Shown here: positions 12,504 through 62,401 of the stretch, piece after piece
How positions within the stretch are numbered: position 1 is the stretch's first letter
How the letters are laid out: each line of letters begins with the position of its first letter
Assembly (NCBI GenBank): GCA_947095585.1
Contig: OX352762.1
Location: 46,500,829-46,564,828, forward strand
Source of the DNA: Nephrocerus scutellatus
Taxonomy: Eukaryota > Arthropoda > Insecta > Diptera > Pipunculidae
DNA length: 64,000 nt
Direction: 5' to 3'
Made by a program: the position numbers and the translations under genes
Notes under the pieces: generated by a model
Databases searched by the model: none
What the model saw: only the letters and a program-made list of their open reading frames with translations
Told to the model about the DNA's origin: nothing

Positions 12504-14159
12504 CCGAAAGAGGTCAGTTCTTCGGCTTTCTTTTGGGTTCCGCAAACTAATTTCATTTTAAATTTTCCTTTGTAGATAAATATGGTATGTCTGTAGGACA
12601 TTATTTTGATTGTTTTGGAATAGTATCTGAGTGGCTTGCTTGTGAATCGTAGGTGATTTGGACTTTTCGAATACCCGACTTGGCATAACCACTTAGTTTA
12701 CTGTCTCAAATCCCTTCTCTATCTTTTGGGTTCTGCCGCGTTCAATAGATGAAGTTGGATCGACCTATGGAATTGCAGACTTCTTGCTCGTAGCGGAAGT
12801 TCTGACCAAGGGGTTCTAGGTTTGTCGTGAGTTCGTGGTAGTTCACAACAACTTCACCTATCAAATTATTACTTTGTGCTCGGTTATTACTTTCGTTTAG
12901 ATTGATATTCTGTCCATAGGACATTAGCTTGTGTTTGGAGGAGACCATCGGTCAGACTCTTTGGAATTGCGGATTTATTTGACTCTTTTACGAATTTCCG
13001 ACTAAAGATCTGTCTGATAAACGCTTAACACAGTGCTAGTGCTAAGAGGGTACTACACCAAAAATCTTATTCTATCTTCTATTTGTTTGACCATGAGCGT
13101 CGTTTTCCCTTTGGAATCGCAGGAGTCTGCCAAAGGCGGACGTCTTGACCAAAGAACCAACGGTTCGCTTGGTAAGTGAACAGTATCTCTCGTTTCAACT
13201 TTTATTTCCTTTTCAAATAACCTTCGGCGGTCTCGTTTGTAGTTATGGAAGTCATTCGGAAACGCGGGTGTTCAGTACTGATCGTTAAGTAACAACGGCA
13301 CCTGACCAATGCTTCCTCATGAAGGATTATTTGCGTATTGTCGGAAAAATTTTCGTCTCATTCCTTAACTACACACAGACTTACTTCAACAGAATGAGGA
13401 ATGATTCGGATTTCGTGGAATAACCGTAGTGTTCGTACAGTACGACTCTCTGACCGAAAAGCTTACGGATTATGCCATTAAGTGAAGGGCTCGAACATTA
13501 CTCATGGAACTGCTTGTCATTTTGCTTCGTGCAAATGCAGACCAGCGTAAGTACAGTAGCCTTTGAACTATCGGTCATTAGTTCTTTCTCTATCTCAAAC
13601 TATGTTCTTGCCGCGATGATGTTATACGACTTAAGACTCAGGTCCTTGTGAGAAGGAACTCAGCCCAAATCTCACCCCCATATATATATATATATTGTAT
13701 TTCGTATAAAAACGTATTTTGTTAGTAATCGGTATCGTGAATTATTTCAGTCACGGAGGATTGTTCACGATTCAAGCTGCCGAAATTTAAATTAAAGTAT
13801 CTTTAGCAACTTGACCATTCTCCATGGAGAATGGTAGGTACCTTTATTTGTATATTCTACAAAGTTTTGTTGAACTTCCTTTTTTTTTGCTTCTTCATTA
13901 ACCTCACGGTTGTACCTCGATCCTAAAGGTAATAAATTCCCGTCTTTAGCGGCTAACAGCTTAACTACAGGTATAGTGATAGCTGTTGATTTTGTTTTAA
14001 CCCCGCTTGGTAAAGCGTTCGTAATTTGTTTGAAGCTTGTTTGTCTGAGTACCGCTCAGAGGTAGTCGATTATTTCTGCTCGCCTGAATTGCTGATTGCT
14101 CCTAAGGGAACGTGCCTGACTGTGAGTGTCAAATTAGGCTCGTAAGTATAGTTGTACAA
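12504..14159 (+). other. R1 untranslated leader
   Basis: 1.65 kb between PBS and Gag without a credible ORF. It holds degenerate internal repeats (GGAATTGC(A/G)GA and TTGACC-type stretches) and a short TA run at 13680. Donor-like and acceptor-like motifs occur, but no pair stands out. Confidence 0.6.
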
Positions 14160-15803
14160 ATGGCTACGGTTCGAAGTACGGAGGATTTGATGCGCCTAAA
14201 TCCTAGTGTGGTCTGTCATGTATGCAAAACGGAGTTGACTTCTGATATCGAAAGTCTAATTTCGGAATGCGAACATGTCTTCCACAACGTATGTATCACC
14301 GAATTTCTGAAGACGTCGACCAAGTGTCCCGTCTGCAAAAGGGAATGCTTGGGCGAAAGTTTGAAGCCAATTGAGATATCGGTGTTACCAACTCCCAGTG
14401 CGATGGTGGAAAGAAGAAGAGTTACCAAACGTACTCCGACCGCAAAGGGAGCAATCCCGAAGCCTATGAACACTCGCAGTGTAAGTGCCGGCAGGAAAGG
14501 TAATGGCAGGAGACGTAATCCGTTAGACTGGTCCATGAATCGCAGTTCAGAAGACACCGGGGTCAACCCTAATGCGAACCGAAGTCTTGTGGATGACGGT
14601 ATCTTTTTCGACGATACTCGGCGAATGTCTGGAGTACATCCTATAGGGACTACTGTCAAAAGCCTTTCAGTAGATGAAGTTAAGGACCTAATAAGCGCCT
14701 CCTTGGAGCGACAGCAGTCCGAAACCATCGACTGCCTGACTAATAGACTAACCGACCTGGTTATCTCCAACGTGCAGCGATGTTTCGAACAATGGAATCC
14801 TCAAGCCAATCTAGCTCTTATTAGTCAACCAAGTGCCTATCAACCTCGTCTTGAAGACTTCTCTCGTATACCCTCTTTGACAGTCACTAATGGACTCAGC
14901 GACCCAGCACTGCAATCTAATTTGCGTAGCGTGTCATTCGCACCGGATCTTCCATCAGCAAACGGTCGTTCTTTGGACCTGTGAAAGTCAGATCGCGTCA
15001 CAAGTATCATACAAAAGTGGCAGTTTCGATACGATGGATCTTCGGACGGTCTCCCTGTTGATGAATTCCTATATCACGTTCAAGTCCTGACGAACCAGAC
15101 TTTAAATGGTGATTTCTCGTTAATTTGCAACCACTTTCACATGCTACTTCATGGGAAAGCACGTGAATGGTTCTGGCGATACCATCGCAGTGTGTTAAAT
15201 TGCAACTGGTTCGATCTTTGCGAATCCCTGCGAACGCAATATAAAGATTGTCGCACGGATTACGATTTATTGGAGAGCATTCGGTCGAGGAAACAGAAGG
15301 AGCGCGAATCTTTTGATCAATATTTCGATTCGGTTTCGGTGATAACCAACCGATTGAATAATTCATTGACCGAGAAGGAGTTAATCGAGCTCTTATCACG
15401 CAACCTACGACCGGATGTTCGTCACGAAATCTTGTACCTTAACATCAATTCTGTTGCGCAACTGCGAGATATTTGCCGGAAACGCGAACGTTTCTTGGAG
15501 GAAGTCAGCCGTGGTTTTCCTGGATGGAGAAATCCTCAACCGCGACGTAACATATCTGAAGTGGACGTTGCGTACAGTCCTCCAAAGGAAAATGGTCCGA
15601 TACCACACATTAGGAATGAAAGTGGGGCTATGGCTGAAGGTGTTGGCCTGGTTTGTTGGAATTGCGATGAACCTGGTCATATATACTTGGATTGTCTACA
15701 AGTAAGACGAATTTTCTGTTACGGATGCGGTACTGTAAACGTTTTCAACCCGAACTGTTTAAAATGTAGGGCGTCGGGAAACTCCCGACCGGGTGTGGCG
15801 TAG
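14160..15803 (+). pseudogene. RING-Gag polyprotein of R1 (one in-frame stop)
   Basis: Start ATG 14160 has a good context (ACAAATGG); an upstream in-frame ATG lies at 14112. From 14160, residues 19-59 form a RING-H2 finger: C19-x2-C22-x14-C37-x-H39-x2-H42-x2-C45-x10-C56-P-x-C59. A basic linker follows, then a helical region, then a TGA at 14982-14984. The frame continues past it into a capsid-like domain (GKAREWFWRYHR, DLLESIRSRKQKERESF) and a CCHC zinc knuckle (CWNCDEPGHIYLDC) plus a second Cys-rich motif, ending TAG 15801. R2 has the same domain order. RING-type fingers usually act as E3 ligases; whether this one does is inference. The TGA may be a nonsense mutation. Confidence 0.82.
15776..15782 (+). 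promoter_or_regulatory. Candidate -1 frameshift site in R1
   Basis: GGGAAAC reads G GGA AAC in the Gag frame, the X XXY YYZ slippery form. Slipping by -1 enters the open Pol frame, which is open across the Gag stop (TAG 15801). U1 has the same heptamer, in the same phase, at its Gag end. Confidence 0.7.
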
Positions 15804-22666: not shown

Positions 22667-23494
22667 CCATCAACTGTAGGTTCTTGTACGCGGACACGTA
22701 GCCCCGGGATAACTCGCGGTTCGTCTTAATATATAAAAAATTTTTTCCTATCAGGTAGTTTTCTTCATCGACAGCGCTGGCGACGACGGAGGTACCTGAA
22801 AAGGAAAAGGTAAGTGAAGATTCATAATTCCTTAGTATTCATTTTGCGTACAATACCGCCATGTATATGGGCTCTTGGCGAACGTGTCCGTCGTCAGGAA
22901 TCGCTCTGTAGACAGAGCGAATTTTTTTGCTTATATATAGATCGGAGAAAAAAAAAAGAAAAAATGAAATTGGGCTATATATGTATATATATATATATAT
23001 ACATACCTCTGTATCCATATCCCCATGTAATAAAATGTTTTAAATTATGCCCGGTGGCAATATATTTTTTATACCTAATCGATTTAAATTACGCCCGTTG
23101 GCAATATACTTTTTATAAATAATCGATTTAGATTATGCCGTTGGCAATATACTTTTTTACAAATAATTGATTTAAATTATGCCGTTGGCAATATACTTTT
23201 TATAAATAAATGATTTAAATTATGCCCGTTGGCAATATACTTTTTTGCAAATAATTGATGTAAATTATGCCGTTGGTAATATACTTTTTTATAAATAAAT
23301 GATTTAAATTATGCCCGTTGGCAATATACTTTTTGCAAATAGTGGATTTAAATTATGCCCGTTGGCACTATACTTTTTTATAAATAATTGATTTAAATTA
23401 TGCCCGGTGGCAATATATTTTTTATAAATAATTGATTTAAATTACGCCCGATGGCAACACCTTTCTATAGCCTTAACGTTTATGCCCAATATAC
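22667..23494 (+). repeat. Duplicated R1 LTR fragment, left half
   Basis: LTR sequence from the CCATCAACTG point through the splice donor (22810) and into the 44-bp minisatellite, interrupted by U1 at 23495. Continues at 34193. Confidence 0.88.
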
Positions 23495-23734
23495 TGTAAC
23501 GAGGTTTTCCCAGCCGGGGTAGAACTCAGTGTGACCAGGGTTCCTTCTATTAGGGTCGTTACAATAAAAAGAATTTGTTTTTAGTTGGGAATGGAATTCA
23601 ATCGTTCTTTATTTGTTCTTCGCTTAATCTGTACACTTAAAATTATCGGTTGTTTAAAGCTATATATTATTTTACTGTATAAGTTTCAATTATGATTAAA
23701 GGAGACCGACGTATCTCCAGGCGGGATGATAGTC

Positions 23735-24640
23735 TGTTCTCGCGTAGAGCGTGGATTTGAAGGCGAGGACTTCGCTCTTGAACCTCCAATAGTGTGGATA
23801 ATGTCTAGCGTTAGGCGTGGGCGTGAAGGCAAGGACTTCGCTCTTGAACCTCCAATCTAGCGTAAAGTGTGGATAATGTCTAGCGTAAAGCGTGGGCGTG
23901 AAGGCAAGGACTTCGCTCTTGAACCTTCAATCTAGCGTAAAGCGTGGGTAATGTCTAGCGTAAAGCGTGGGCGTGAAGGCAAGGACTTCGCTCTTGAACC
24001 TCCAATCTAGCGTAAAGCGTGGGTAATGTCTAGCGTAAAGCGTGGGCGTGAAGGCAAGGACTTCGCTCTTGAACCTCCAATCTAGCGTAAAGCGTGGGTA
24101 ATGTCTAGCGTAAAGCGTGGGCGTGAAGGCAAGGACTTCGCTCTTGAACCTCCAATCTAGCGTAAAGCGTGGGCAATGTCTAGCGTAAAGCGTGGGCGGG
24201 AAGGCAAGGACTTCGCTCTTGAACCTCCAATTAGCGTAAAGCGTGGATATTGTCTAGCGTAAAGCGTGGGCGTGAAGGCAAGGACTTCGCTCTTGAACCT
24301 CCAATCTAGCGTAAAGCGTGGATACTGTCTAGCGTAAAGCGTGGGCGTGAAGGCAAGGACTTCGCTCTTGAACCTCCAGTCTAGCGTAAAGCGTGGATAC
24401 TGTCTAGCGTAAAGCGTGGGCGTGAAGGCAAGGACTTCGCTCTTGAACCTCCAATCTAGCGTAAAGCGTGGATACTGTCTAGCGTAAAGCGTGGGCGTGA
24501 AGGCAAGGACTTCGCTCTTGAACCTCCAATCTAGCGTAAAGCGTGGATACTGTCTAGCGTAAAGCGTGGGCGTGAAGGCAAGGACTTCGCTCTTGAACCT
24601 CCAATCTTTAGGATAACTACTGGCGTAAAGTGTAAAGTGA
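23735..24640 (-). repeat. 75-bp tandem array in the U1 LTR (about 12 units)
   Basis: Units carry GGCAAGGACTTCGCTCTTGA-ACC and two copies of CTAGCGTAAAGCGTGG. Because 75 is divisible by 3 it gives a false 169-codon ORF. Same array in the other LTR at 32189-33094. The CTCTTGAAC core also repeats in the N1 LTR. Confidence 0.93.
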
Positions 24641-24759
24641 AGGCAAGGACTTCGCTCTTGAACCATTCACTCTGACTTGTTGCCGGGAAGAGGGATTTCT
24701 AGGAAAGAAGACCGATTGTTAGGACTGCTGGCCTTTTATAGTCCTCCATCGAGTGTAGA

Positions 24760-25060
24760 AATCCCGTTGTTGCAACGATCGTGAAATCCGCTAACTCGCC
24801 TGATGGTGTGCTGTTGTTGTTGTTTCCTTTGATGTGATATGGTTGTTGTTGTTTTGTCCGGCCGGTCAGTATTGCTGCGCTCGGCGGTCTATTGGTTCGT
24901 GATCCCGTTGGTGCAACGATAGGGAAATCCGCTACGTCACATGATCGGTGGGACTTGGTAGTGTTGTTGTTGCCTCTTTGATGTTTGTTAGTTCCAAGAT
25001 CCCGTTGATGCAAAATTAGGGAACTCCGCTACATCGCATGATAGGTGTAGTGTTGTTGTT
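24760..25060 (-). repeat. Three degenerate direct repeats in the U1 LTR
   Basis: Units start ATCCCGTTG(T/G/A)TGCAA and continue with a GGGAAATCCGCTA-like stretch, then TTG runs. Matched at 33214-33514. Antisense reading gives Q/N-rich ORFs that I do not consider genes. Confidence 0.7.
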
Positions 25061-25729
25061 GGTTTGCCTCGAAAATGCGTGCTGTCGTACATTGTGTGTT
25101 GTTTGTTGTTGTTTTTTTTTCTTTTGGTTGTCTAATGATGCTGCAGACTTCTGATTGTCCGCTATCATATTTTGCATGCTGTTTGTTGTTGCCTTTTACG
25201 TGGGTCTGCGCCGTCTTACACTGCATGCTTTGTTGTTGTTGTTCTCCTTGACTTGTCTGATGCAAAATGTATGCATGTTGTTTGTTGTTGTTTTGAATAT
25301 TGGTCGGGTATTCTGTGTCTGTGGTGCTGTATGCCTGCTGTTGTTGTTTTCTCCGATGATGCTGTGTGCTTCTGCATGTATTGTGAGTCACGAGCGGGGT
25401 ATCCCTAGTCTGTGTGGTCTGGTGCTGTATGTGTGTCGTCATTCTCTCACTCAGCTGCTTGATGATGGCGTGCATTGGTTGTGCGTGGTGAATTTACGCG
25501 TTGTGAAATATAGAGAACCTGTGTATCATAAGCCGAGAGTAATTTCGGCGAGTAATTTACCACTTAAAAGAGTGGGAAACATGTTGCTAGGTTTAAGAAC
25601 ATTATGGTAAACGTTTCTTTGTAATGTGTATGCAAGTTTTTATTAAATTCAAAAGAAAGTGTTGTTTACAAAAAGATGGTTGCGTACCAAAAATAATGTG
25701 TGGAAAAAATTGTGTGGCAAATTTTCCCT

Positions 25730-27094
25730 TCACACCTCCCCCTTACTTCGACGGATGCTGATCTTTCCCTTCCTGGTGACTAGCACTCCAAGTCGGGTCT
25801 TGTCCTGCACATGGAAGAAATGTATCCTTCGTAGTTCTCCCGCTTGTACTCTCGCCTTTGCCGTATCTATCTTGGCCTGGAGTTCATGGGATACGGTTTC
25901 GCTCATGGTCTCTTCTTTGTGCACTATGCCTGTGAGTGACAGGACATCTTCCTGTCGTCGGGTCGTCGCGGTTTTTGGTGGGTTGTTCCTGTCTGGTCCG
26001 GGTTCGAGGAGGCCTGTCGGCGGGGTGAAACTTTTTTCCCTCGGTTTGTTGTTGTGGCTGCCACTGCTACTACTGCTGCTACTACGGTTGCTGCTGTTGC
26101 TCCCACTACTGCTACTGCTGCGGGTACTGTTGCTACTACTGTCACTGCTGCTGCTACTGCTATCGTGTCTGCTGCGACTGCGGTAGCGGTGGCGAGTGCG
26201 GCGCGGAGTTTTTGGCCTGCTGCGGTTGACTCTTTCTCGGATGTTACAGTCTATGTCGTCATCGCCTAATCCGAGATCTGGAAACTTAATCGCTGGGTCG
26301 GCGCTTCTTTGGATGAGGTTGGCAAGCATTCTCCGTTTCTTGCTGGCGCTGTCCGGCGACATCCTCTGGCCTGGCGAGTCGGGTCCTGACAGTCCCCAGG
26401 TGAGGACTTTCTCCGCTGCTTCCAGTAAAAATGCGCCACAATCCACCCCATTTCGCTGTTGTGGCATCTCCATGTGTCGGCCTGGGTATGAGTCCTGGAA
26501 CTCTGCCCACGTCCAGTGATGTCCCTTCGATAGGTGCTGTTGCACGACGTAGCCGCGAATTACCTCAATGGCCTCGTTCCTTGGTGTTTTGGCCCACGAA
26601 TCGTACACATCAATGGTGGCACGGTGAGGTCTCCCCGGGTTGGTAACCACCACGAGGTACCAATGGTTGCCGTCGCAAATGGGCACTAAAACCAGGTCTT
26701 TCCTGATGAGGTCCTTGTGCCGGTCCCACCTGCTCACTAGTGCGTGTCGCCTAATGGCCGTTGACTCGGGGCTCTCCTGCTGATCTGGCTGGTACTGCTG
26801 CATCCGTGAGAAGAGGAATGTGCTGCAGATCTTGATTCTCTCCCGGTGGCTTTCCTCCATCCTTCTCTCTAACCACCTGAGTCCGACTCCCACCAGAACG
26901 TCGTTGAAGTATACCCCTTTCTTTAGTCGGCAGTAGTCGGCCATTCGCACATCGATGCCACCTGGCCCTGGAGGAAAACTTCCGATCACCTGGTTTAACT
27001 CGGCGTCTCCGGATGCGTGAATCGTGTTTGTGGCTTCCATGCAGATGCGTTGTATGGCTTCGTTGTCTATCTTGGGTGTCCTCTGGGTATTCAT
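25730..27094 (-). CDS. ORF3 of U1: Ulp1/SENP-like cysteine protease with RS-rich tail
   Basis: 454 residues in the env position. The Ulp1 (C48) catalytic set is complete: KKGVYFNDVLVGVGLRWL (residues 58-75) fits the substrate-side motif, H144 in GNHWYLVVV, D165 in DVYDSW, Q213 and C219 in PQQRNGVDCGAF, with Gln six before Cys as in Ulp1 proteins. Such enzymes process SUMO or related modifiers. Residues 285-345 are RS- and Ser-rich, then Pro-rich, then a helical end. No signal peptide or membrane segment is seen, so it is not Env. The start ATG has A at -3; the stop overlaps the 3' LTR by its TGA. It lies 290 bp after Pol, so it needs its own mRNA or reinitiation. Substrate (SUMO, ubiquitin, NEDD8) is unknown. 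Confidence 0.85.
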   Translation of the reverse strand: MNTQRTPKIDNEAIQRICMEATNTIHASGDAELNQVIGSFPPGPGGIDVRMADYCRLKKGVYFNDVLVGVGLRWLERRMEESHRERIKICSTFLFSRMQQYQPDQQESPESTAIRRHALVSRWDRHKDLIRKDLVLVPICDGNHWYLVVVTNPGRPHRATIDVYDSWAKTPRNEAIEVIRGYVVQQHLSKGHHWTWAEFQDSYPGRHMEMPQQRNGVDCGAFLLEAAEKVLTWGLSGPDSPGQRMSPDSASKKRRMLANLIQRSADPAIKFPDLGLGDDDIDCNIRERVNRSRPKTPRRTRHRYRSRSRHDSSSSSSDSSSNSTRSSSSSGSNSSNRSSSSSSSGSHNNKPREKSFTPPTGLLEPGPDRNNPPKTATTRRQEDVLSLTGIVHKEETMSETVSHELQAKIDTAKARVQAGELRRIHFFHVQDKTRLGVLVTRKGKISIRRSKGEV

Positions 27095-27384: not shown

Positions 27385-30300
27385 TCAGTGTGTTGCTGAC
27401 GTATTGCTCTGGATTTCGATGATGATGCTATTGATCGCTGTCGCATTTTCGTCATGCCTCTGACTTCTCTCTCCCGCTTGTGTTCTTTTGTGTGGTCGTC
27501 TTGAGGTTTGTTGCCGATTGTTTTGTCTTATGGTTTTTAATGGAACGATGTTCTGTTCATGGTTCCCCGTCCCAGACCGCCAGTTGCGCGGGTGATTATA
27601 CCATTCGTGCTGATGTTTGCTGCCGTGTTGTATCACTGTGGGCTCGTTAGAGTGTTGGGTGTGGGGTGTCACTGTTATTGCGATGCGGTTTGTCTTCTCT
27701 GGTTCGGGTGGGGAGTTTCCGTGGAAGTCTTTCAACTCATTGACGTGGGCTGTGCGCTCCTTGTTTTGCCCATGTTTCCTTAGCCTTACTATGACAGGTG
27801 AGACGAAGCTCATCACTAAGTATGGCCCGTCGTATCGTGGTGCTAGTTTACTAGCGAACCCTTCCACTGCCTTTGATAGGTGGTGCTGTTTGACCAGCAC
27901 CAGCTTCCCGATCTCGGGCTTCCAAGGACGTCGTCTGAGGTTGTAGTGGCGGGCTTGATCCTTCGCAGCTCGTTCTAAGTTTCGTCGCACGATCTCGAAG
28001 ATCTCGTTCATCTGGGTCTTTCGGTCCTCTGGTTTTTTACCTAGTGTACCCGTCCCAGGAGTGATCTCGTCGTACAGCGTGTTCGGGAGGCGGGGTTCTC
28101 GGCCCTGTGTCAGGAATGCCGGGCTGTATCCTGTTGAGTCCTGTACGCTTGAATTTATTGCTAGCATAACTTCGGGCAGCTTCTCGTCCCAAGTGCGTTG
28201 TTGCGTTCCCGCTAGTTGTGCAATTATTGTTTTAGCGGTGCGGTTGACCCTTTCAGTGGGATTTTCTTGGGGGGTATATGGCGCTGTAAATTGCTGGCGT
28301 ATGCCCATGGTCTCCAAGAATCGACGAAATGCCCTGCTACTGAATTGCGCCCCGTTGTCTGTTATCAGGATCTTGGGTACGCCGTATCGGGCCAGTATAC
28401 GTTCGCGAAAAGCCCGTTGGACTCCTTCGGTCGTTGCCCTTCGCATTGGAATCAGTTCGACCCATTTCGAAAACCGATCAAAGAAAACCAGTAACATGGT
28501 ATTTCCGTGTTTCGATCTAGGGAGTGGCCCAACGAAGTCACTACACAATGTGGCCCATGGTTCGTCGGCCACCTGGGTAAGCATTTTACCTGCTGCTTGC
28601 TGTTGGCTGGGTTTGTAGCACTGGCAGCTTTCACATTTCTTTACATACTGACGAATGTCACGAAACATACCCGGCCAATAGTAGCGACCGCATATTCTCG
28701 CCGTGGTCTTCCGGATCCCCAGGTGCCCTGCTGATGCGCTGTCATGGTTTTCCTGCAGTACCCGACTTCGAAGGTTACTCGGCACACACAGTTTCCACGG
28801 TGTTGAGTCCTCGTCTCCGGCTCGATGCCCTATGTGTCGATACAGCTGCTGGCCTTCGATCACGTAGTCGGGGAATTTGGCTGGGTTCTCTGTGACCTGC
28901 TGGACCTTCTTTTGCAGCCAGTGGCACTTCTGTTGCTCTACGTGTTCCTCGGAGGTTGCCATCAGTGTTTCTTGCGGTTGTCTTGATAGAGCGTCTGCAA
29001 CGACGTTGAGTTTGCCCCGCCTGTACTGTATGTCGTATGTATACTGCTGTAGTTCTAGCGCCCACCGTGCGATCCGGCCGGACGGGCTGGATATCGAGTT
29101 TAGCCATTTGAGCGAGAGGTGGTCTGTTATTACTGTATACCTATACCCTTCGATGTATGCCCGTATCTTCCTTATTCCCCATACGATGGCCAGGCATTCC
29201 TTTTCGGTCGGCGAGTAGTTCTTCTCTGCGGGGTTTAGGTGTCGACTGGCATACGCTATGACCCGTTCACTGTCGTCTATCTCCTGGGTGAGGACTGCTC
29301 CTAAACCATAATCGCTGGCATCCGTCTGGAGTGTGAACTTCTTAGAGAAATCGGGGCAGGCCAGGATTGGGGCCTCGGTAAGTTTAACTTTGAGTGCTTC
29401 GAATGCTTGCTGCTGCTCTTCTCCCCACTTCCAGTGCTTGCCTTTCTTGAGGAGGCTCGTCATCGGTCGCACGGTCTCGGCGAAATCTGGAACAAATCGG
29501 CGGTACCATGAAGCGATGCCCAGGTACCGGCGTACCTCTCGTACATTACTCGGGGGTTGGAGCTCTTTGATGGCCGCTATTTTGTCGGGGTCAGTGTGTA
29601 TGCCTTTGTTACTGACCACGTGTCCCAAGTACCGTATTTCCGTTTTGCAGAACTCACATTTTTCCGGGTTAATTTTTAGGTTAGCCATCTGCAATCGCCT
29701 GAACACCTTGCGCAGATTTCCCATGTGTTCGTCAAACGTTCTCCCGATGACGACTATGTCGTCAAGATATGCAAACGCATGGGGCTCCATCTCTGGTCCG
29801 ATGACTTGATCGAGCGCTCGCTGGAAGGTCGCAGGGGCCGAATGTAGCCCGAACGGCATCACGCGCCATTGGAACAAGCCACGGCCGGGTACCGTGAAGG
29901 CGGTGTACTGCTTACTCTTCTCCTCCATGGGGATTTGCCAATATCCATTTCTCAGGTCCAGACTACTGATGAATTTGGCACCGCGAAGCTTTTCTAGAAT
30001 GTGTTGGATTCGTGGCAGGGGGTATGCGTCGGGCACTGATCGTGCATTCAGTTCTCGATAGTCGATACATAGTCTCCATTTGCCCGTCTTCTTTCGCACG
30101 AGAACTATGGGCGCGCTGTGGGGGCTATGTGAAGGCTCGATACATCCTTTTTCCAACAACTCGTCGATCTCTGTATTTATTATTTCCTGCATGGCTGGAT
30201 TACGGGGGAAGTAGCGCTGCTTTATTGGGCGTTCGTCGTGCATGATGATTCTGTGTTCCGTGATGTTGGAAACGGTGGGTAGTTGATCAAATTTCTTGAA

Positions 30301-30888
30301 TTCTTGTTGCAGAAACGCTGAAAGCTGTTCCTGTTCTGTCCGTGGTGTTTCTTGCGTGGTGGTGCATTGTCGGATGTGTTCTGCGGGCGTGGTTCTGTGC
30401 TGTAATTTTATGGTCTGGCCACCGCAGCTTAGACGGGCCTCCACCCGTGACAAAAAGTCCAGACCTAAGATTACTTCATCCATTGCATCTGGGAGAATCA
30501 AGAATGGAAACTGTATCTCCCTATTACCTATCTCGACATCTAGCTGTAGGGCCTCTCGGATTAACTTGGGTGTCCCTTCGGCCATCCGTACGGTCACATC
30601 CATGGGTAGACTCTTTGTTGTCCCCCTTTTGTCTTCTGCAAAACGTTCGCTCACAAAACTCCTAGTAGCCCCTGTGTCAATCGTAGCTTTTACCGGCGTC
30701 CCTCCTAGAGTGATGGTGGCGAGGATCCGGTTAGAATCGTAGGCAAGGAAGTTTACTGGGCCCGGGGTGTCGGTCTTGGGGTTTCCGTCGCACCACGGTT
30801 TCGGCGGTCCCCTTGCTCGTTTCCCGGTCGTTCGACGCGTTTCCGGCAGCATTCCACGGTCCGAACATTTCGAAGGCCGCAGTCCCAA
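27385..30888 (-). CDS. pol: Pol polyprotein of U1 (PR-RT-RNaseH-IN)
   Basis: 1167 codons open; translated product starts at the frameshift (30819-30825), so about the first 22 codons are not used. Protease D71-T-G (ATIDTGATRSFV). RT: KTGKWRLCIDYREL, D311 in SSLDLRNGYWQIP, PFGLHSAPATF, YLDD 374-377. RNase H: D523, E564, D589, D632. Integrase: H715-x6-H722-x29-C752-x2-C755, core D784, D844, E879 (34 residues between the last two). A GPY-type module (RYDGPYLVMSFVSPVIVRL) follows; a basic Gln-rich tail ends the protein. No chromodomain. All catalytic residues I checked are present, and no stop or shift occurs. Related to but clearly distinct from R1/R2 Pol. Confidence 0.95.
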   Translation of the reverse strand: MGLRPSKCSDRGMLPETRRTTGKRARGPPKPWCDGNPKTDTPGPVNFLAYDSNRILATITLGGTPVKATIDTGATRSFVSERFAEDKRGTTKSLPMDVTVRMAEGTPKLIREALQLDVEIGNREIQFPFLILPDAMDEVILGLDFLSRVEARLSCGGQTIKLQHRTTPAEHIRQCTTTQETPRTEQEQLSAFLQQEFKKFDQLPTVSNITEHRIIMHDERPIKQRYFPRNPAMQEIINTEIDELLEKGCIEPSHSPHSAPIVLVRKKTGKWRLCIDYRELNARSVPDAYPLPRIQHILEKLRGAKFISSLDLRNGYWQIPMEEKSKQYTAFTVPGRGLFQWRVMPFGLHSAPATFQRALDQVIGPEMEPHAFAYLDDIVVIGRTFDEHMGNLRKVFRRLQMANLKINPEKCEFCKTEIRYLGHVVSNKGIHTDPDKIAAIKELQPPSNVREVRRYLGIASWYRRFVPDFAETVRPMTSLLKKGKHWKWGEEQQQAFEALKVKLTEAPILACPDFSKKFTLQTDASDYGLGAVLTQEIDDSERVIAYASRHLNPAEKNYSPTEKECLAIVWGIRKIRAYIEGYRYTVITDHLSLKWLNSISSPSGRIARWALELQQYTYDIQYRRGKLNVVADALSRQPQETLMATSEEHVEQQKCHWLQKKVQQVTENPAKFPDYVIEGQQLYRHIGHRAGDEDSTPWKLCVPSNLRSRVLQENHDSASAGHLGIRKTTARICGRYYWPGMFRDIRQYVKKCESCQCYKPSQQQAAGKMLTQVADEPWATLCSDFVGPLPRSKHGNTMLLVFFDRFSKWVELIPMRRATTEGVQRAFRERILARYGVPKILITDNGAQFSSRAFRRFLETMGIRQQFTAPYTPQENPTERVNRTAKTIIAQLAGTQQRTWDEKLPEVMLAINSSVQDSTGYSPAFLTQGREPRLPNTLYDEITPGTGTLGKKPEDRKTQMNEIFEIVRRNLERAAKDQARHYNLRRRPWKPEIGKLVLVKQHHLSKAVEGFASKLAPRYDGPYLVMSFVSPVIVRLRKHGQNKERTAHVNELKDFHGNSPPEPEKTNRIAITVTPHTQHSNEPTVIQHGSKHQHEWYNHPRNWRSGTGNHEQNIVPLKTIRQNNRQQTSRRPHKRTQAGERSQRHDENATAINSIIIEIQSNTSATH

Positions 30889-31862
30889 CAGAAGATGGTT
30901 TGGGGGTTACGACAGTCCCGCCTCATGTGTCCGTCCTGGCCACATCGCAGGCAAGCCGTCCTTACATTTATTCGCGCTTCCATATTTTGTGCTACCATGA
31001 AATTCCTTTCGGGTTGTCTGGGTCGGGGCGAGGGTTTGATAGGTTCTGCTGCACCAGCGATGCCTTCGAAATCTTCTGCCAGACTGATGAGTTCGTGGAG
31101 GTCTCTAAAATCCTTCCTCCGGATATAGTACTGGTACTCTTGGCGACAGTTTCGGAAGATCCTTTCGACCTGTTGTGTACCGGTGTAGTTTGCGTGCCTC
31201 ATGAGGTTCTGCATTATGATTACGAAATCCTTGAAGCGCTCCTTTGGCTTTTGCTGGCGTTGACGAATTTCGTCTTCTAGATGTTCCCAGTACCTGGAGG
31301 GCAGGAAGAACTGTAGAAAATCTGTCGTGAAGGCGTTCCAGGTCTCCCATTTTCGGTTGTTGTTTCGGTACCATAATAACGCGCGGTCACGGAGTAGTTC
31401 CGGCATGGTTCTGGGTAGAAGGTCCCTGTTTAAACAGTAGGCATCCGCAAGTTCTTCTAGCCTTTCGATGAATAGGAGAGGCTCCTTACCACCATCGTAC
31501 TTCACCGACCACTTCCTCACCTGGTCCATTATTTGAGCGTACGACGTAACTGTCGTGTCCGTACTGCTTCGCGTTGGAACCACTTCCGGTGGTGCCGGAG
31601 AGATTGCCCTGATGGTTGCCTTTGGGTCGTCGCGTACCGTGGCTTCAGATGGATTCAAGGCTGGTGATGGGCTGCGTCTATGCTTCTCCTCGAGCTCACT
31701 TAGGCGTATCTCGTCCTCCGACGTAACGTCTCGTCCGGAAACAAAGCTGGAAAACCTTTTCCTTAAATCTTCCACTGCGCCGTTGCTGTCGATTCGGAAC
31801 TCGCTCATGTAGCTCTTCAGCTCCTCTTTCGACAGTGTATAAATCCAACTGGTCTTAACCAT
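30753..31862 (-). CDS. gag: Gag of U1 with SAP-like N-terminus
   Basis: 369 residues. ATG in strong context (ACG ATG G). Residues 9-41 (LSKEELKSYMSEFRI, then GAVEDLRKRF) resemble a SAP helix-loop-helix. A Ser/Pro linker follows, then a retrotransposon capsid domain (about 110-270: QVRKWSVKYDGGKEPLLFIERL, LLWYRNNNRKWETW). CCHC zinc knuckle C304-x2-C307-x4-H312-x4-C317 is followed by a second Cys motif (C325-x2-C328, C338, C339) lacking the His. It overlaps Pol by 136 bp. It would form the particle and bind RNA. Confidence 0.93.
   Translation of the reverse strand: MVKTSWIYTLSKEELKSYMSEFRIDSNGAVEDLRKRFSSFVSGRDVTSEDEIRLSELEEKHRRSPSPALNPSEATVRDDPKATIRAISPAPPEVVPTRSSTDTTVTSYAQIMDQVRKWSVKYDGGKEPLLFIERLEELADAYCLNRDLLPRTMPELLRDRALLWYRNNNRKWETWNAFTTDFLQFFLPSRYWEHLEDEIRQRQQKPKERFKDFVIIMQNLMRHANYTGTQQVERIFRNCRQEYQYYIRRKDFRDLHELISLAEDFEGIAGAAEPIKPSPRPRQPERNFMVAQNMEARINVRTACLRCGQDGHMRRDCRNPQTIFCWDCGLRNVRTVECCRKRVERPGNEQGDRRNRGATETPRPTPRAQ
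30819..30825 (-). promoter_or_regulatory. -1 frameshift site GGGAAAC of U1
   Basis: On the minus strand the Gag codons are CCG GGA AAC GAG (P-G-N-E), giving G GGA AAC in slippery phase. After slipping, the reading is GGG AAA CGA GCA, which is the open Pol frame (G-K-R-A). The site lies inside the Gag/Pol overlap. Downstream G/C-rich sequence could pair, but I did not fold it. Confidence 0.8.
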
Positions 31863-31927: not shown

Positions 31928-31946
31928 GGTCCCTGCTCGGGCGCCA
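31928..31946 (-). promoter_or_regulatory. tRNA-Lys(UUU)-type primer-binding site of U1
   Basis: Minus strand TGGCGCCCGAGCAGGGACC, matching the complement of the 3' end of tRNA-Lys(UUU) with one G for A. Two bases (AT) separate it from the LTR end. Confidence 0.88.
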
Positions 31947-31948
31947 AT

Positions 31949-34188
31949 TGTAACGAGGTTTTCCCAGCCGGGGTAGAACTCAGTGTGACCAGGGTTCCTT
32001 CTATTAGGGTCGTTACAATAAAAAGAATTTGTTTTTAGTTGGGAATGGAATTCAATCGTTCTTTATTTGTTCTTCGCTTAATCTGTACACTTAAAGTTAT
32101 CGTTTGTTTAAAGCTATATATTATTTTACTGTATAAGTTTCAATTATGATTAAAGGAGACCGACGTATCTCCAGGCGGGATGATAGTCTGTTCTCGCGTA
32201 GAGCGTGGATTTGAAGGCGAGGACTTCGCTCTTGAACCTCCAATAGTGTGGATAATGTCTAGCGTTAGGCGTGGGCGTGAAGGCAAGGACTTCGCTCTTG
32301 AACCTCCAATCTAGCGTAAAGTGTGGATAATGTCTAGCGTAAAGCGTGGGCGTGAAGGCAAGGACTTCGCTCTTGAACCTTCAATCTAGCGTAAAGCGTG
32401 GGTAATGTCTAGCGTAAAGCGTGGGCGTGAAGGCAAGGACTTCGCTCTTGAACCTCCAATCTAGCGTAAAGCGTGGGTAATGTCTAGCGTAAAGCGTGGG
32501 CGTGAAGGCAAGGACTTCGCTCTTGAACCTCCAATCTAGCGTAAAGCGTGGGTAATGTCTAGCGTAAAGCGTGGGCGTGAAGGCAAGGACTTCGCTCTTG
32601 AACCTCCAATCTAGCGTAAAGCGTGGGCAATGTCTAGCGTAAAGCGTGGGCGTGAAGGCAAGGACTTCGCTCTTGAACCTCCAATTAGCGTAAAGCGTGG
32701 ATATTGTCTAGCGTAAAGCGTGGGCGTGAAGGCAAGGACTTCGCTCTTGAACCTCCAATCTAGCGTAAAGCGTGGATACTGTCTAGCGTAAAGCGTGGGC
32801 GTGAAGGCAAGGACTTCGCTCTTGAACCTCCAGTCTAGCGTAAAGCGTGGATACTGTCTAGCGTAAAGCGTGGGCGTGAAGGCAAGGACTTCGCTCTTGA
32901 ACCTCCAATCTAGCGTAAAGCGTGGATACTGTCTAGCGTAAAGCGTGGGCGTGAAGGCAAGGACTTCGCTCTTGAACCTCCAATCTAGCGTAAAGCGTGG
33001 ATACTGTCTAGCGTAAAGCGTGGGCGTGAAGGCAAGGACTTCGCTCTTGAACCTCCAATCTTTAGGATAACTACTGGCGTAAAGTGTAAAGTGAAGGCAA
33101 GGACTTCGCTCTTGAACCATTCACTCTGACTTGTTGCCGGGAAGAGGGATTTCTAGGAAAGAAGACCGATTGTTAGGACTGCTGGCCTTTTATAGTCCTC
33201 CATCGAGTGTAGAAATCCCGTTGTTGCAACGATCGTGAAATCCGCTAACTCGCCTGATGGTGTGCTGTTGTTGTTGTTTCCTTTGATGTGATATGGTTGT
33301 TGTTGTTTTGTCCGGCCGGTCAGTATTGCTGCGCTCGGCGGTCTATTGGTTCGTGATCCCGTTGGTGCAACGATAGGGAAATCCGCTACGTCACATGATC
33401 GGTGGGACTTGGTAGTGTTGTTGTTGCCTCTTTGATGTTTGTTAGTTCCAAGATCCCGTTGATGCAAAATTAGGGAACTCCGCTACATCGCATGATAGGT
33501 GTAGTGTTGTTGTTGGTTTGCCTCGAAAATGCGTGCTGTCGTACATTGTGTGTTGTTTGTTGTTGTTTTTTTTTCTTTTGGTTGTCTAATGATGCTGCAG
33601 ACTTCTGATTGTCCGCTATCATATTTTGCATGCTGTTTGTTGTTGCCTTTTACGTGGGTCTGCGCCGTCTTACACTGCATGCTTTGTTGTTGTTGTTCTC
33701 CTTGACTTGTCTGATGCAAAATGTATGCATGTTGTTTGTTGTTGTTTTGAATATTGGTCGGGTATTCTGTGTCTGTGGTGCTGTATGCCTGCTGTTGTTG
33801 TTTTCTCCGATGATGCTGTGTGCTTCTGCATGTATTGTGAGTCACGAGCGGGGTATCCCTAGTCTGTGTGGTCTGGTGCTGTATGTGTGTCGTCATTCTC
33901 TCACTCAGCTGCTTGATGATGGCGTGCATTGGTTGTGCGTGGTGAATTTACGCGTTGTGAAATATAGAGAACCTGTGTATCATAAGCCGAGAGTAATTTC
34001 GGCGAGTAATTTACCACTTAAAAGAGTGGGAAACATGTTGCTAGGTTTAAGAACATTATGGTAAACGTTTCTTTGTAATGTGTATGCAAGTTTTTATTAA
34101 ATTCAAAAGAAAGTGTTGTTTACAAAAAGATGGTTGCGTACCAAAAATAATGTGTGGAAAAAATTGTGTGGCAAATTTTCCCTTCACA
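31949..34188 (-). repeat. 5' LTR of U1
   Basis: 2240 bp, same length as the other LTR at constant offset 8454. Differences noticed: two near 32100 (AAGTTATCGTTTG against AAATTATCGGTTG) and one near 32652. Same internal repeats. Confidence 0.93.
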
Positions 34189-34192
34189 ATAC

Positions 34193-37914: not shown

Positions 37915-37918
37915 ATGT

Positions 37919-39643
37919 TGTAACGGAGTTTCCCAGCCGGGGTAGAACTCAGTGTGACCAGGGTTCAATAAGGGGGGTCGTTACAATAAAATTTATGGTT
38001 TTGGGTTTGTGGAAAATTAAATGAATCTCTTTATTATTTCAAAAATTGTTTGTGTTTGTTTCAATCATTGGATTTACATTCGTTAAAACAATTGTAAAAA
38101 TTGTAAAGTAAAAGTACAAAGTGTCCTTTATTCCTAGGAAAAGAATGGGTTAATCGTAGTGGCAAGGTAGCACTCTTGAACCACTGTAGCTGAAAGAAAG
38201 TTTATGGGTTAACGATGGGTTTAAGTACAAAGTACTTGTACCCCTTGGCTCCTAGAATTGGGAGAGAACGGGTTAATCGTAGTGGCAAGGTAGCACTCTT
38301 GAAGCACTGTAGCTGAAAGAAAGTTTATGGGTTAACGATGGGTTGAAGTACAAAGTACTTGTACCCCTTGGCTCCTAGAATTGGGAGAGAACGGGTTAAT
38401 CGTAGTGGCAAGGTAGCACTCTTGAACTACTTTAGCTGAAAGAAAGTTTATGGGTTAACGATGGGTTTAAGTACAAAGTACTTGTACCCCTTGGCTCCTA
38501 GAATTGGGAGAAAACGGGTTAATCGTAGTGGCAAGATAGCACTCTTGAACCACTGTAGCTGAAAGAAAGTTTAGTCGAGGATTTGGGTTTTCGGCAGGAT
38601 GTAGTTCAACAATAATAGTAAGGTAGTACTCTTGAACTATTTGTTGTGAACAGTGGAAGGAACTCAGAAAGAAAAGCAAGGTAGTACTCTTGAACTATTA
38701 GGTGTGGACAGTTGAAGGAACTCAGGAAGAATAGCAAGGTAGTACTCTTGAACTATTAGGTGTGGACAGTGGAAGGAACTCAGGAAGAATAGACCTTTTG
38801 CTTGAGCTGCGTACTCCTTTTATACTATTTCCCTGCGGTTGGTTTTCCGTTGGCTTCTTGTTTTCATCGTGTTCGTTGTTGTTGTGCTGGATTTCCATAA
38901 ATTCAGACGCATGTATGCGCGTTTGACATATACATGTTCTTCGTAGGATGTTTCCTTTGAAGAACAACATGTATGGAATACATGTTTCTGGCCTTGCAAC
39001 GTGTGTGTGTACGCATAAATTCTTCATTGCTCAGTTGCGAATATGCATGTAGTTGTCTGCCTTACACCGTGTGTGTGTGTGTGTATGCATAAATCCATCA
39101 TTGCTCAGTTTCGAATAAGCATGTTGTTGTCTGCATTCGTTGGCGAGCCCACTTGGTAGTTTTTTTTTGCCTGAGCGGTGCTCAGGTCATTGACACCGCC
39201 AACCGTTACATGGTATTTTGATTCTTGGCTGCTGTGCGCGGGAGTACGTCTGCACCTACTGCCTGAGTGCGAGGGGGACAGATGTTTTTCTCCGGCAAAT
39301 TCGCTGCTGTGTGCCGTAGTGGTCTACTGATGTCGTGACAGAGACCATGCGTTGTGCATCTGCGTGGTGGTAGTTTTGTTAAATGCGCGATGATCTCTTA
39401 ATCGCCTATTGCTCGTAATAGGAAAAGAAAGAAACGAGGAGAAACGAAATTTCGCCGCCAATTGAGTGACTTTTGCTTAATATTTTTAGAGAGTGCGTTG
39501 GTAACTATGAATGATTGTTAAAAACTACATTTTGAGTTTTTTTTTTATTTATTTAATTTTATGTTTATGACAAAAGGCTTGGAAATTATTTCCAGACATT
39601 TTGTGTGGGAAAAATTCTAATGTGGAGAATTTTGTTCCTCACA
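37919..39643 (-). repeat. 3' LTR of N1, left arm
   Basis: + strand TGTAACGGAG to CCTCACA. The first 60 bp resemble the U1 LTR end (CCCAGCCGGGGTAGAACTCA). Internal arrays at 38150-38570 (about 123 bp, four units) and 38605-38790 (about 60 bp, three units). The empty MITE site GTAGTGGT is near 39315. The adjoining purine tract on the minus strand is AACGGGGGAG. Confidence 0.9.
38150..38790 (-). repeat. Tandem arrays in the N1 LTR
   Basis: Four units of about 123 bp with GGCAAGGTAGCACTCTTGAA and TTAAGTACAAAGTACTTGTA, then three units of about 60 bp with GCAAGGTAGTACTCTTGAAC. The second unit type keeps the CTCTTGAAC core also found in the U1 array. GTACAAAGTACTTGTAC is partly palindromic. Confidence 0.88.
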
Positions 39644-39680
39644 CTCCCCCGTTGCTTCGGCGGGCAAGTACTTACCCTTC

Positions 39681-41060
39681 CTAATAGTTAGTACTTTGAA
39701 ACGGACGCTCTGTTGGAGGTGCACGAAACCTGGTTTTGATTGTCATACGGCTCCTTGTCGTTTTGAGTCTTCTGGGGACTGCGTTAGTTATTGTCGGCGG
39801 TAGGTGTTGTGAGGTTCCAGACGACTGCGGCGACTGGGATGGCTGTGGCTTCTGCGATGAATATTGTATCTTTAGCGATGTTTGCGGCGATTTTGAACGC
39901 TTTTGATTAAGTTTCTGGCAACAGTGATAATTCCTAAGGGCTGCTTTGGTTCTTGAGGGCTGGTTTTCTGACTGCGACGACAGGGACGGCTGTGGCGAAT
40001 GTAACTGCTGTGGCGGCTGTAACTGCTGTGGCGAATGTGACTGCTGTGGCGACTGTGACTGCTGTGGCGACTGTGACTGCTGTGGCAGCTGTGAAGGCTG
40101 TGGCTTCTGTGATAAATATGATGTCTGTAGCGACGTTTGTGGCGACTTCGACAGCTTTTGATCAAGTTGAAGTTCATGGCGACGGTGATGATTCCTACAA
40201 GCTGATTTGGTTTTTGACGATGGGTTTTCTGGCTGCTGGTGGTTTAGAGTAACGGAAGTACTCGTCAACCATGACGATTGTTGAGCTTTTGTAGGCGACT
40301 TCTGGTAATGCTGATTGCTAAGACGTCTGTGACAATCTTTGGCCAGAGTCCTGACTGCAGTATGTCCAAACGGATGTGGGAATCCTTGAACACTATAGTG
40401 TCTCTCGTCAATTCCTGGACTGCGTTGTTTTGGACAGAGGTAACTTTCGTCAACTCTTGCCCTTGCTGTTACCTTAGGCTGTGACGACTTTTGATGCCTT
40501 GGAAGCGTAGATGTTGTGACGTTTGGCGCCTGTAATTGTTTTGGGCGGCTGTGACGTCTTCTTCTGAACGGTGTGACTAACACGAAGTCTGACTTCAGCG
40601 GCTGTTGGGTCTTTGGCAATTGTGGTTGTTTAACTTCTCGGAATGTGTTGCATGTCAGACGTTTAACCGGACCTGCTGATAAAGTTTGAAGTGTTAAGTA
40701 CTCACCTCCGAGACAAAAAGTGGCTCTGGTTCTTGTAAGGAAGTCCATTCCTAGTGTAAGATTATCAGCGGCGTTCGGCAACACTAGCAGGCGCAGTGAA
40801 CATAAGGATTCCCCAAACCGAATGTTGACGCTTAACTCCTGACGGACAGTTGTCTGAATTCCGTCAGCCATTTGGATTGGGATCTGCACGGGGGTGGCGT
40901 TGTCCAAATTTCGAAACTTTTCAGCCAAAGCTTCGCTGATGAAACTGCGGGATGCGCCAGTGTCAATAGTGGCCTGAACGGGTTCGTGGTTGATGATGAT
41001 GCGCGCGAGAATTCTGTGTTTATCCTGGATCACGGCTGATTTCTCGCCAGACAGGGGCAA
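39681..41060 (-). CDS. Protease with long Q/S/P-rich tail (N1)
   Basis: 459 residues. Residues 15-125 are a retropepsin (VQATIDTGASRSFISEALAEKF with D33-T34-G35, and LTLGMDFLTRTRATFCLGG), close to the U1 protease. After about residue 150 no RT follows; instead there is a basic, Gln/Ser/Pro-rich region with a repeated module (KSPQTSLQTSYLSQKPQPSQ near 295 and KSPQTSLKIQYSSQKPQPSQ near 400) and QQSQSP runs from a 15-bp DNA repeat. It stays open to 38 bp before the LTR. The upstream Gag is in the same frame, separated by a TAA. Role of the tail is unknown. Confidence 0.65.
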   Translation of the reverse strand: MPLSGEKSAVIQDKHRILARIIINHEPVQATIDTGASRSFISEALAEKFRNLDNATPVQIPIQMADGIQTTVRQELSVNIRFGESLCSLRLLVLPNAADNLTLGMDFLTRTRATFCLGGEYLTLQTLSAGPVKRLTCNTFREVKQPQLPKTQQPLKSDFVLVTPFRRRRHSRPKQLQAPNVTTSTLPRHQKSSQPKVTARARVDESYLCPKQRSPGIDERHYSVQGFPHPFGHTAVRTLAKDCHRRLSNQHYQKSPTKAQQSSWLTSTSVTLNHQQPENPSSKTKSACRNHHRRHELQLDQKLSKSPQTSLQTSYLSQKPQPSQLPQQSQSPQQSQSPQQSHSPQQLQPPQQLHSPQPSLSSQSENQPSRTKAALRNYHCCQKLNQKRSKSPQTSLKIQYSSQKPQPSQSPQSSGTSQHLPPTITNAVPRRLKTTRSRMTIKTRFRAPPTERPFQSTNY

Positions 41061-42055
41061 ATGACGATGCTCAGCGTGTGAGTTACGTTGACGGCAGCAG
41101 TCAATTGTCCTGATTCTCTGTTATCCACAGTCCCAGCAGAAAATCACTCGAGGGTTAGTGCATTCTTTTTGAAAGTGGCCTTCCTGTCGGCACCATCGAC
41201 AAGTCATTCGAGGATTGTATGGTCCTTCTTCAGGCTGACTCACCATACAATGCCTCTCCTGTGGTCTTCTTCGAGGTGTCGTTGTTGCGCTCTCCTGGTT
41301 TGCCTGGATACCTTCGTAGTCCTCTGCTAGATCAATGAGCTCGCGGAGATTTCCGAAGTCTTTTCTTCGGATATAATATTGATATTCTTGGCGGCTGTTC
41401 CGGAAGATCCTTTCCACCTGTTCTTCTTCGGGGTAATTTGCGTGCCTCATCATATTCTGCATCACAATTACGAAGTCTTTAAATTGTTTCTGTTGTTTGT
41501 GTCGTCTTTAGCGAATCTCATCGTCCAGACGTTCCCAGTACCTTGTGGGCAAGAATAATTGCAGGAAGTCTGCTTTGAAACTGTTCCAGTCCTGCCACTT
41601 CAGGTTATTATTGCGGAACCACAGTAGGGATCGGTCGCGAAGTAACTCGGGCATAGTCCTTGGAAGGAGGTCTTTGTTTAACGATTAGGCGTCAGCGAGC
41701 TCTTCCAGCCTCTCGATAAATAAAAGAGGTTCCTTGCCACCATCGTACCGCACTGACCACTTTCGTACCTGGTCTATAAACATGGGATATGTTGTCCCTG
41801 GTGTTTCTGATGGAGTTCGAGTGGCTGTTGCCTCTCGTATGGCTGGGGACGCTGTCCTGCTTATAGCCCCCTTTGGTTCATCGTGGTCCACTGGATCCGG
41901 AGGGTTCAGGGATATATGGGGCCGCGGTGATTGGCTACGAGTGTGTATTCGTTCTAATTCGGTGAGACGCGTTTCGTCCTCCGACGTAACGTCTCGCCCG
42001 GTGATGTAATTGGAGAAACGTTTCCTCAATTCATCGAGTGCTTAGTTTTTTTTTT
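41061..42055 (-). pseudogene. Gag of N1, left arm
   Basis: Capsid and zinc-knuckle Gag similar to U1 (QVRKWSVRYDGGKEPLLFIERLEELADA; CRWCRQEGHFQKEC, a CCHC motif). It begins at the equivalent of U1 residue 30, so the SAP-like part is lost; a long T-run (A-run on this strand) replaces it. Stops: TAA at 41685-41687 (Tyr codon in the right-arm copy), TAA at 41508-41510 (shared by both arms) and a TAA after FCWDCG (shared). Confidence 0.85.
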
Positions 42056-42066
42056 TTTAAATTCAG

Positions 42067-42085
42067 GGTCCCTGCTCGGGCGCCA
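42067..42085 (-). promoter_or_regulatory. tRNA-Lys(UUU)-type primer-binding site of N1
   Basis: Same 19 bases on the minus strand as in U1, two bases from the LTR end. Confidence 0.88.
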
Positions 42086-42087
42086 AT

Positions 42088-44078: not shown

Positions 44079-44082
44079 ATGT

Positions 44083-44116
44083 ATATAAATATGTAAGATA
44101 AATTCTGAATTGTTTT

Positions 44117-44148
<32 letters not shown>

Positions 44149-45773: not shown

Positions 45774-45778
45774 TAAAA

Positions 45779-46054
45779 TGGCACCCAACGTGGGGCCAGA
45801 AAAATGTTGGCATTGCGCTAATTTTTTTTTGAGTCCACCCCAATTCAGTGTGATGACCACGTTGATGCGTTCCATTTTATTACATAAAATGGCGCCCAAC
45901 GTGGGGCCCGAAAAGAGTTTGCATTCAGCAGATTATTTTCGTGTTCCACACACATTCGCTTTCTAATCATCTTGATTAATTTCCACTCAATTCAGAGTGA
46001 TGACCACGTTGATGCGTTCCATTTTATTACATAAAATGGCGCCCAACGTGGGGC
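45779..46054 (+). promoter_or_regulatory. Triple tRNA-Lys PBS array of R2
   Basis: Sites at 45779-45796 (TGGCACCCAACGTGGGGC, one change), 45890-45907 and 46037-46054 (both TGGCGCCCAACGTGGGGC), each preceded by ATTACATAAAA, the LTR-end-like sequence. Spacing 111 and 147 bp. The unit between sites includes GATGACCACGTTGATGCGTT. The last site is followed by CCCGAAAGAAGTTCAG, as at the R1 5' PBS. Confidence 0.88.
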
Positions 46055-57640: not shown

Positions 57641-58353
57641 GAGAGCAAAAAAAAAAATTCGATACGGTAATATAGCGAATATATATAAGATACGGTTTAA
57701 CAAGAATAGTTGAAGTTTCTCCCCAGGTCAGAGCCGGAGGGTTCGTTTGAAGCAACAAAAAAAGTTGGATGATATCGGGAATAATATCTTTATTTTTAAA
57801 CAGGCTACGTAGTGCTGGATGAGGACTTAAAGTCGAACATGACGAAGGCTGACAAATAGCATTCCCAAAACAAAATCCTTATTAGGGTAAAACGATTGAA
57901 AAGTAACAACTTTAGTTAAAGCACAAAAAAAATTATCGATCAGGTATTAGTTGGGCCTGTGCATCACTTTCGATTAGTTTAGAACCAAATGGTCTCAGAA
58001 TTCAAAAAGAAAAGAAATTTTGAGTGAATTCCTACAATAGGTAATCTATCGGAGTCGTACACGTGGTCCTTCCAAGTACCATCCATTTACAAGTTATACG
58101 CCTGATTTTCGTTATCCACTGCGTCATACGAGCACACCAAATTAAATGAACGTTTGTCTTTGGTCGATGTTATCAAACAGAGATAAGTCATCGAAGTTCA
58201 AAGGAGACGAACGACTTAATGAAGTGACGAGGATAGCGCAAGTCGACGACTGAATCTCGAACCGAATAAACAGGGGTTAAAATTAGGAAAAAGGGAGACA
58301 AGCAAGAGTGTGGGACCCGTAAAGGAAATCAGAAGATACTGAACTTCTTTCGG
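57641..58353 (-). other. R2 leader, right arm
   Basis: Mirror of 46055-47022, about 265 bp shorter. No ORF. Confidence 0.6.
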
Positions 58354-60255: not shown

Positions 60256-60293
<38 letters not shown>

Positions 60294-60331: not shown

Positions 60332-60335
60332 ACAT

Positions 60336-62355: not shown

Positions 62356-62357
62356 AT

Positions 62358-62376: not shown

Positions 62377-62401
62377 CTGAATTTAAAAAAAAAAAAACTA
62401 A

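Follow-up and report, generated by a model that had tools for sequence, protein, structure and literature searches.

Ulp1-type domains in mobile elements and a third gene in a fly retrotransposon

Ulp1-type protease domains have been described from Mutator-like, Ginger1 and NeSL/Utopia elements (PMC13317346, PMC2836005, PMC4640811). Plant Kaonashi/VANDAL elements, which are Mutator-like, keep such a domain in a setting linked to escape from silencing, and VANDAL elements encode anti-silencing proteins of the VANC type, a few of which include a Ulp1 domain; a 2026 review calls the precise function of these plant Ulp1 domains unknown (PMC13317346). Ginger1 DNA transposons carry a C-terminal Ulp1 or OTU domain, with Ulp1 following a gypsy-like integrase (PMC2836005), NeSL/Utopia retroelements possess a Ulp1-like protease domain (PMC4640811), and long terminal repeat (LTR) elements of bdelloid rotifers encode a non-envelope enzyme, a GDSL esterase or a DEDDy exonuclease, as a third open reading frame (ORF3) (PMC5408684). 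Here we analyzed 64,000 nucleotides of the dipteran Nephrocerus scutellatus (contig OX352762.1, positions 46,500,829 to 46,564,828; the whole stretch is called the window), in which a complete Ty3/gypsy element carries a Peptidase C48 (Ulp1/SENP) gene as its third gene, in the position of env.

The setting of this gene sets it apart from each of the described systems. Kaonashi/VANDAL elements are plant DNA transposons in which DNA methylation is targeted and the protein context is another one (PMC13317346); they have a Mutator-type transposase and no reverse transcriptase (RT), whereas pol here has RT, RNase H and integrase. Ginger1 elements move by cut-and-paste, those with Ulp1 are listed from Hydra, and the domain is fused to the transposase (PMC2836005), while NeSL/Utopia elements are nematode non-LTR elements with the domain at the N terminus (PMC4640811). 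The rotifer elements encode other enzymes, and the main text describing them does not use the word Ulp1 (PMC5408684). Among insect endogenous retroviruses surveyed in 2025, third ORFs were confined to the gypsy/gypsy clade (PMC12992720). In the open-licence literature, as far as papers were listed and their texts available, no C48 third ORF turned up in a Ty3/gypsy element; an earlier mention may exist in subscription journals or in Repbase reports, which lie outside that literature.

ORF3, a minus-strand frame of 454 codons, runs from an ATG at 27094 down to a TGA ending at 25730 and matches Pfam PF02902 at E 5.6e-25 and 88.9 bits (cut-off 20.7). Its C48 catalytic domain spans residues 46-266 (26297..26959, minus strand, by Pfam and alignment), and the catalytic residues H144 (26663-26665), D165 (26600-26602) and C219 (26438-26440), together with the oxyanion residue Q213 (26456-26458), fall on the catalytic positions of two aligned SENP1 rows. 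The original prediction had described an intact 454-codon ORF between pol and the 3' LTR of a complete element, with these four residues and a Ulp1/SENP-like identity. The coordinates and the LTR pair agree with it, the residues are as claimed, and the identity can be sharpened to a SENP6/7-like protease of a probably Osvaldo-type element.

Within the C48 family, ORF3 appears closer by sequence to SENP6/7 (ULP2) than to SENP1/2/3/5/8. SENP7 is the top match in the PDB sequence search (E 5.2e-16, with no SENP6 chain among the matches listed) and ranks first for ORF3, for the related family D and for a profile of seven families. For family D and the seven-family profile, the E-value of SENP8, the NEDD8 protease, falls short of that of SENP7 by some 40 orders of magnitude, and SENP8 does not appear among the matches listed for ORF3 (E up to 10). 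The ORF3 structure model takes the SENP fold, again with SENP7 as best match; poxvirus and African swine fever virus (ASFV) proteases of the same fold stand lower in the list, and a viral fold library gave only weak matches. A single-sequence model with a predicted local distance difference test score (pLDDT) of 37 was discarded. In the protein database, whole ORF3 had one match, a vole SENP1, with scoring limited to the 7,987 candidates that had the most words in common with it; residues 1-275 had none at E 0.01, and scans of viral and genome contigs found no relative. Cleavage of SUMO is predicted. SENP6/SENP7 share with ORF3 the C48 domain and the H-D-Q-C residues; ORF3 differs from them in being a short stand-alone protein, encoded by a retrotransposon, in which a Ser-rich linker and then a C-terminal module follow the domain.

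Recurrence, selection and lineage

One ORF3 search of the window's assembly (613 Mb, 9 contigs), with 93 of 1,748 candidates scored, returned at least 97 matches, 52 of them full-length and 40 of those stop-free. Stop-free copies make up 32 of the 39 full-length matches at 95% identity or more, none of the four at 80-95%, five of the six at 60-80% and all three at 40-60%. A PF02902 search returned at least 150 matches, all above the cut-off (150 of 487 candidates scored). The fetched loci, including ten extra C48 loci that sample further groups, were best-scoring or hand-picked rather than random, and 56 were counted after omission of L019 (host SENP1-like) and L002 (the window's own copy). 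A related integrase end lies within 3 kb upstream on the same strand in 53 of the 56 (exceptions L036, L054 and L056). By sequence the loci were labeled as family A, that of the window copy, B (L012-L016), C (L009-L011, L018), D (L020-L037 and L041), E (L049-L051, L054), F (L052, L053, L056) and G (L055, L057); the C48 gene thus stands behind pol in seven related families of one lineage in the same genome. The profile match and the further genomic copies clear the original prediction of both objections named in advance, and the near-identity of the LTRs (3 mismatches in 2,240 bp) bears out its claim that the ORF was kept open until recently. Its statement that such an ORF is unusual for Ty3/gypsy stands for the open-licence literature searched, but this genome has such ORFs in seven families.

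The H, D, Q and C residues are retained in all 12 rows chosen as representatives, namely 11 of this genome and P0020, a 1,483-residue protein from an outside source that joins pol (58% identity over 87% of the query) and C48. In the best match of each of the 56 loci, a motif scan found the H-W motif in 55 and the D-S and Cys motifs in 53 each; the stretch of L010 cuts its motif off, Asn replaces Asp165 in L015, L032 lacks D-S, and L035 and L041 lack the Cys motif. Between-family pairs analyzed by the Nei-Gojobori method gave a C48 dN/dS (omega) of 0.124 (0.076-0.184) for A versus B, 0.22 (0.131-0.354) for A versus L017, and 0.217 (0.105-0.318) for A versus C, where dS of about 1.4 is near saturation. 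The same kinds of pair gave 0.03-0.08 for RT-RNase H; C48 is under purifying selection, weaker than that on RT. The ORF3 tail (residues 400-454) is constrained in A versus B (omega 0.148, 0-0.344), but the interval for A versus L017 reaches 1.14. Between A and B (L013), dS climbs from 0.27 in gag and 0.45 in RT to 0.92 at the integrase end and 0.96 in ORF3, and because of this rise the 5' parts of the two families look to have been exchanged by recombination.

The pol protein had 6,852 database matches, of which 120 were listed; a separate ORF3 is invisible in such a list, and PF02902 occurs in one of the 120, P0020. The closest named relatives among the matches listed come from Drosophila, Eurosta and Musca, followed lower down by bees, an ant and a pseudoscorpion; none of the 120 is a named Osvaldo sequence. 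An integrase tree places A, B, C and G together, joined by D with P0002 (support 86/82), and E with F, with P0020 separate. The C48 tree, which does not settle the order among groups, separates A-B-C-G, D, E-F and P0020. Since the two trees group the families alike, they suggest that C48 has traveled with pol. C48 may have a single origin in the lineage, although the best tree takes two changes and a branch with all C48 rows to one side of it occurs in 1% of 200 bootstrap trees; constraining these rows together was not rejected (approximately unbiased test, p-AU 0.0975), in a test that omitted C_L009 and P0067 (200 residues or fewer).

Element architecture, the ORF3 tail and neighboring elements

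The element lies on the minus strand between two copies of a 4-bp target site duplication (TSD), ATAC (23491..23494 and 34189..34192). Its 5' LTR (31949..34188) and 3' LTR (23495..25734) are 2,240 bp each and 99.866% identical, and both hold a tandem array of about 1 kb with a 75-bp period (23708-24681 and 32162-33135). The primer binding site (PBS; 31929..31946), 2 bases past the 5' LTR, we take to be of tRNA-Lys type. The gag gene (30753..31862, 369 aa) encodes Retrotrans_gag and one CCHC knuckle, which scores under the Pfam cut-off, and overlaps in the -1 frame with pol (27385..30888, 1167 aa), which encodes aspartic protease, RT, RNase H and integrase; both are open and lie upstream of ORF3 (25730..27094). 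By its long LTRs, 4-bp TSD and presumed Lys-type PBS the element fits the Osvaldo type, in a comparison made with the published description. Osvaldo-lineage elements, known from Drosophila and mosquitoes, have in Culex LTRs of 997-2137 bp, mostly 4-bp TSDs and a Lys PBS; unlike the present element, they are described without C48 in the excerpts of that source, where the Culex elements are tabled with one or two ORFs or as fragmented (PMC3286476).

Behind its catalytic domain, ORF3 has a Ser-rich variable linker (residues 267-399; 25898..26296, minus strand) and a C-terminal module (residues 400-454; 25733..25897, minus strand). The final codons overlap the polypurine tract AAGGGGGAGG (25735..25744, minus strand), which doubles as coding sequence, and the stop codon falls within the first bases of the 3' LTR; ORF3 is therefore part of the element and not an adjoining host gene. 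Stops occur in all three frames between pol and ORF3, so ORF3 requires its own message or re-initiation. Within the fast-changing linker, the window copy and L001 lack, at about residue 388, the SD of a TGSD stretch that the other A, B and C rows have.

The C-terminal module is modeled as a helix and three strands (pLDDT 81-85, residues 401-450). Four pol relatives that lack C48 (P0015, P0034, P0037 and P0067) share a small module in their last 60 residues, behind a linker that is Ser/Pro-rich or acidic. A tail profile built from these four, picked by eye, matches the ends of D, E, F and P0020, where 0-2 of 500 shuffles did equally well, and does not match A (window copy 62/500, A_L003 91/500), B (64/500), C (474/500) or G (G_L055 466/500, G_L057 223/500). 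An earlier, shorter tail test gave 10/2000 for A and 1/2000 for P0020, and the direct pairing of the ORF3 and P0020 tails was not significant (652/2000). Homology of the window tail is likely, judging from its by-eye likeness to the other families.

SENP6/7 carry a SUMO-interacting motif (SIM) outside the catalytic domain. We found a SIM-like stretch adjoining the C48 domain in four of four family E loci and one of three F loci. Three patterns were tried: an acidic one devised after two examples had been seen, a strict one, and a reverse one; the shuffles ignore acidic runs. Among the pol-relative tails the acidic pattern occurs in 4 of 20 (as many in 0/1000 shuffles), the strict in 2 of 20 (30/1000) and the reverse in none of 20, the tails of P0004, P0108 and P0114 having been excluded beforehand as chimeric gene models, of which P0004 was Pfam-checked. 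Among the ORF3s of eight representatives, the acidic pattern is found in four (as many in 1/2000 shuffles), the strict in none and the third in one (98/2000); the acidic matches of D, inside the C48 domain, and of B, in the linker, are not counted as SIMs.

Other elements share the window. At 14112-15800 (plus strand), a RING-H2 finger ORF (Pfam zf-rbx1, 4.3e-9) stands directly ahead of the gag of another Ty3/gypsy element, in the same frame with one stop codon between, and may represent a RING-Gag fusion. Two copies of a related element (gag 62% identical, aspartic protease present) lie at 37918-43462 (minus strand) and 60963-64000 (plus strand, cut by the window end); the former, a non-autonomous relative without C48, lacks RT and integrase and has a Gln/Ser-rich stretch followed by an LTR. 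The window also holds a 6.1-kb inverted duplication of 99.0% identity (40443-46573 and 57835-64000). Elsewhere in the assembly, C48 domains cluster over some 120 kb (C2:56345592-56464724), with open frames that reach 1,482 codons.

Candidate function and its alternatives

The original prediction proposed that the element may counter SUMO-dependent silencing or process its own proteins. We give an even chance to the reading that ORF3 is an accessory SENP6/7-like SUMO protease gene of an Osvaldo-type element, removing SUMO from host silencing factors. Of this explanation, the analysis established the gene with its fold class and intact catalytic residues, as well as purifying selection and the presence of C48 genes behind pol in seven families. 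ORF3 would be expressed from a separate, probably spliced, mRNA, because stops interrupt every frame between pol and ORF3, and the enzyme would strip SUMO from host nuclear proteins. The likeliest useful targets would be SUMO-dependent silencing factors of the PIWI-interacting RNA (piRNA)/heterochromatin pathway, allowing the element to transcribe and spread in spite of silencing; the SIM-like stretch that some families have would direct the enzyme to sites rich in SUMO. In Drosophila ovarian cells, silencing by Panoramix requires SUMO, and a SUMO-Panoramix fusion is cut by cellular deSUMOylases (PMC13195609).

Several points count against this proposal. Its piRNA step is known from Drosophila; the window copy fits none of the three SIM patterns, and its sister copy L003 fits one weak pattern that 98 of 2000 shuffles also reach. 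The higher omega of C48 (0.11-0.23, versus 0.03-0.08 for RT) fits an arms race and also weaker constraint. Moreover, the host's Ulp1 in yeast, held at the nuclear pore, contributes to Ty1 repression (PMC8585004), so deSUMOylation need not favor an element and the sign of the effect is not to be assumed.

Some viral cysteine proteases of the same clan process their own viral proteins, and the enzyme may likewise deSUMOylate the element's Gag, integrase or capsids, or trim its polyprotein, and so regulate assembly or nuclear entry. The place of C48 beside pol, its fusion to pol in P0020 and the poxvirus and ASFV proteases in the fold list would suit this reading, which we nevertheless consider rather unlikely: the element already has an aspartic protease, the nearest relatives are SUMO deconjugases and not viral maturation proteases, and the pol-tail proteins P0015, P0034, P0037 and P0067 do without C48, which seems dispensable for maturation generally. 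Action on ubiquitin, NEDD8 or another modifier is improbable, and SUMO is favored as the target, because SUMO proteases match far better than SENP8, which acts on NEDD8, and because SIM-like stretches stand beside C48 in family E and at one F locus.

That ORF3 is a captured host gene, a passenger of no use to the element, has some appeal in that mobile elements are known to capture genes (PMC13317346) and the linker is highly variable; it is made very improbable by an omega well under 1 between diverged families, by catalytic residues kept in every representative row and by the like family groups of the pol and C48 trees. A divergent envelope gene misread as a protease, for which the site between pol and the 3' LTR speaks, was rejected and is counted as refuted, its chance being close to nil. 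In errantiviruses (gypsy with env) the third ORF is an envelope with a transmembrane (TM) segment, whereas ORF3 combines a strong C48 match with no TM-like stretch (highest 19-residue hydropathy 0.72-1.26 in seven family rows) and no match to a Pfam envelope domain.

A wider form of the SUMO protease proposal is more tentative, and we lean against it. It holds that a whole lineage of animal LTR retrotransposons may have its own deSUMOylating counter-defense, a counterpart of plant VANC/Kaonashi, with a SENP6/7-type enzyme, a SIM in some families and a C-terminal module common to C48-less relatives, which may use SUMO-binding tails instead; the enzyme would strip SUMO from piRNA/heterochromatin silencing factors. 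Ulp1-type domains recur across unrelated mobile elements, and here such a domain forms a stand-alone gene, recent and conserved, within elements of an insect. In Drosophila, the silencing of transposons through SUMO is described and can be assayed (PMC13195609), and thus this insect ORF3 makes transposon deSUMOylation against silencing directly testable in an animal.
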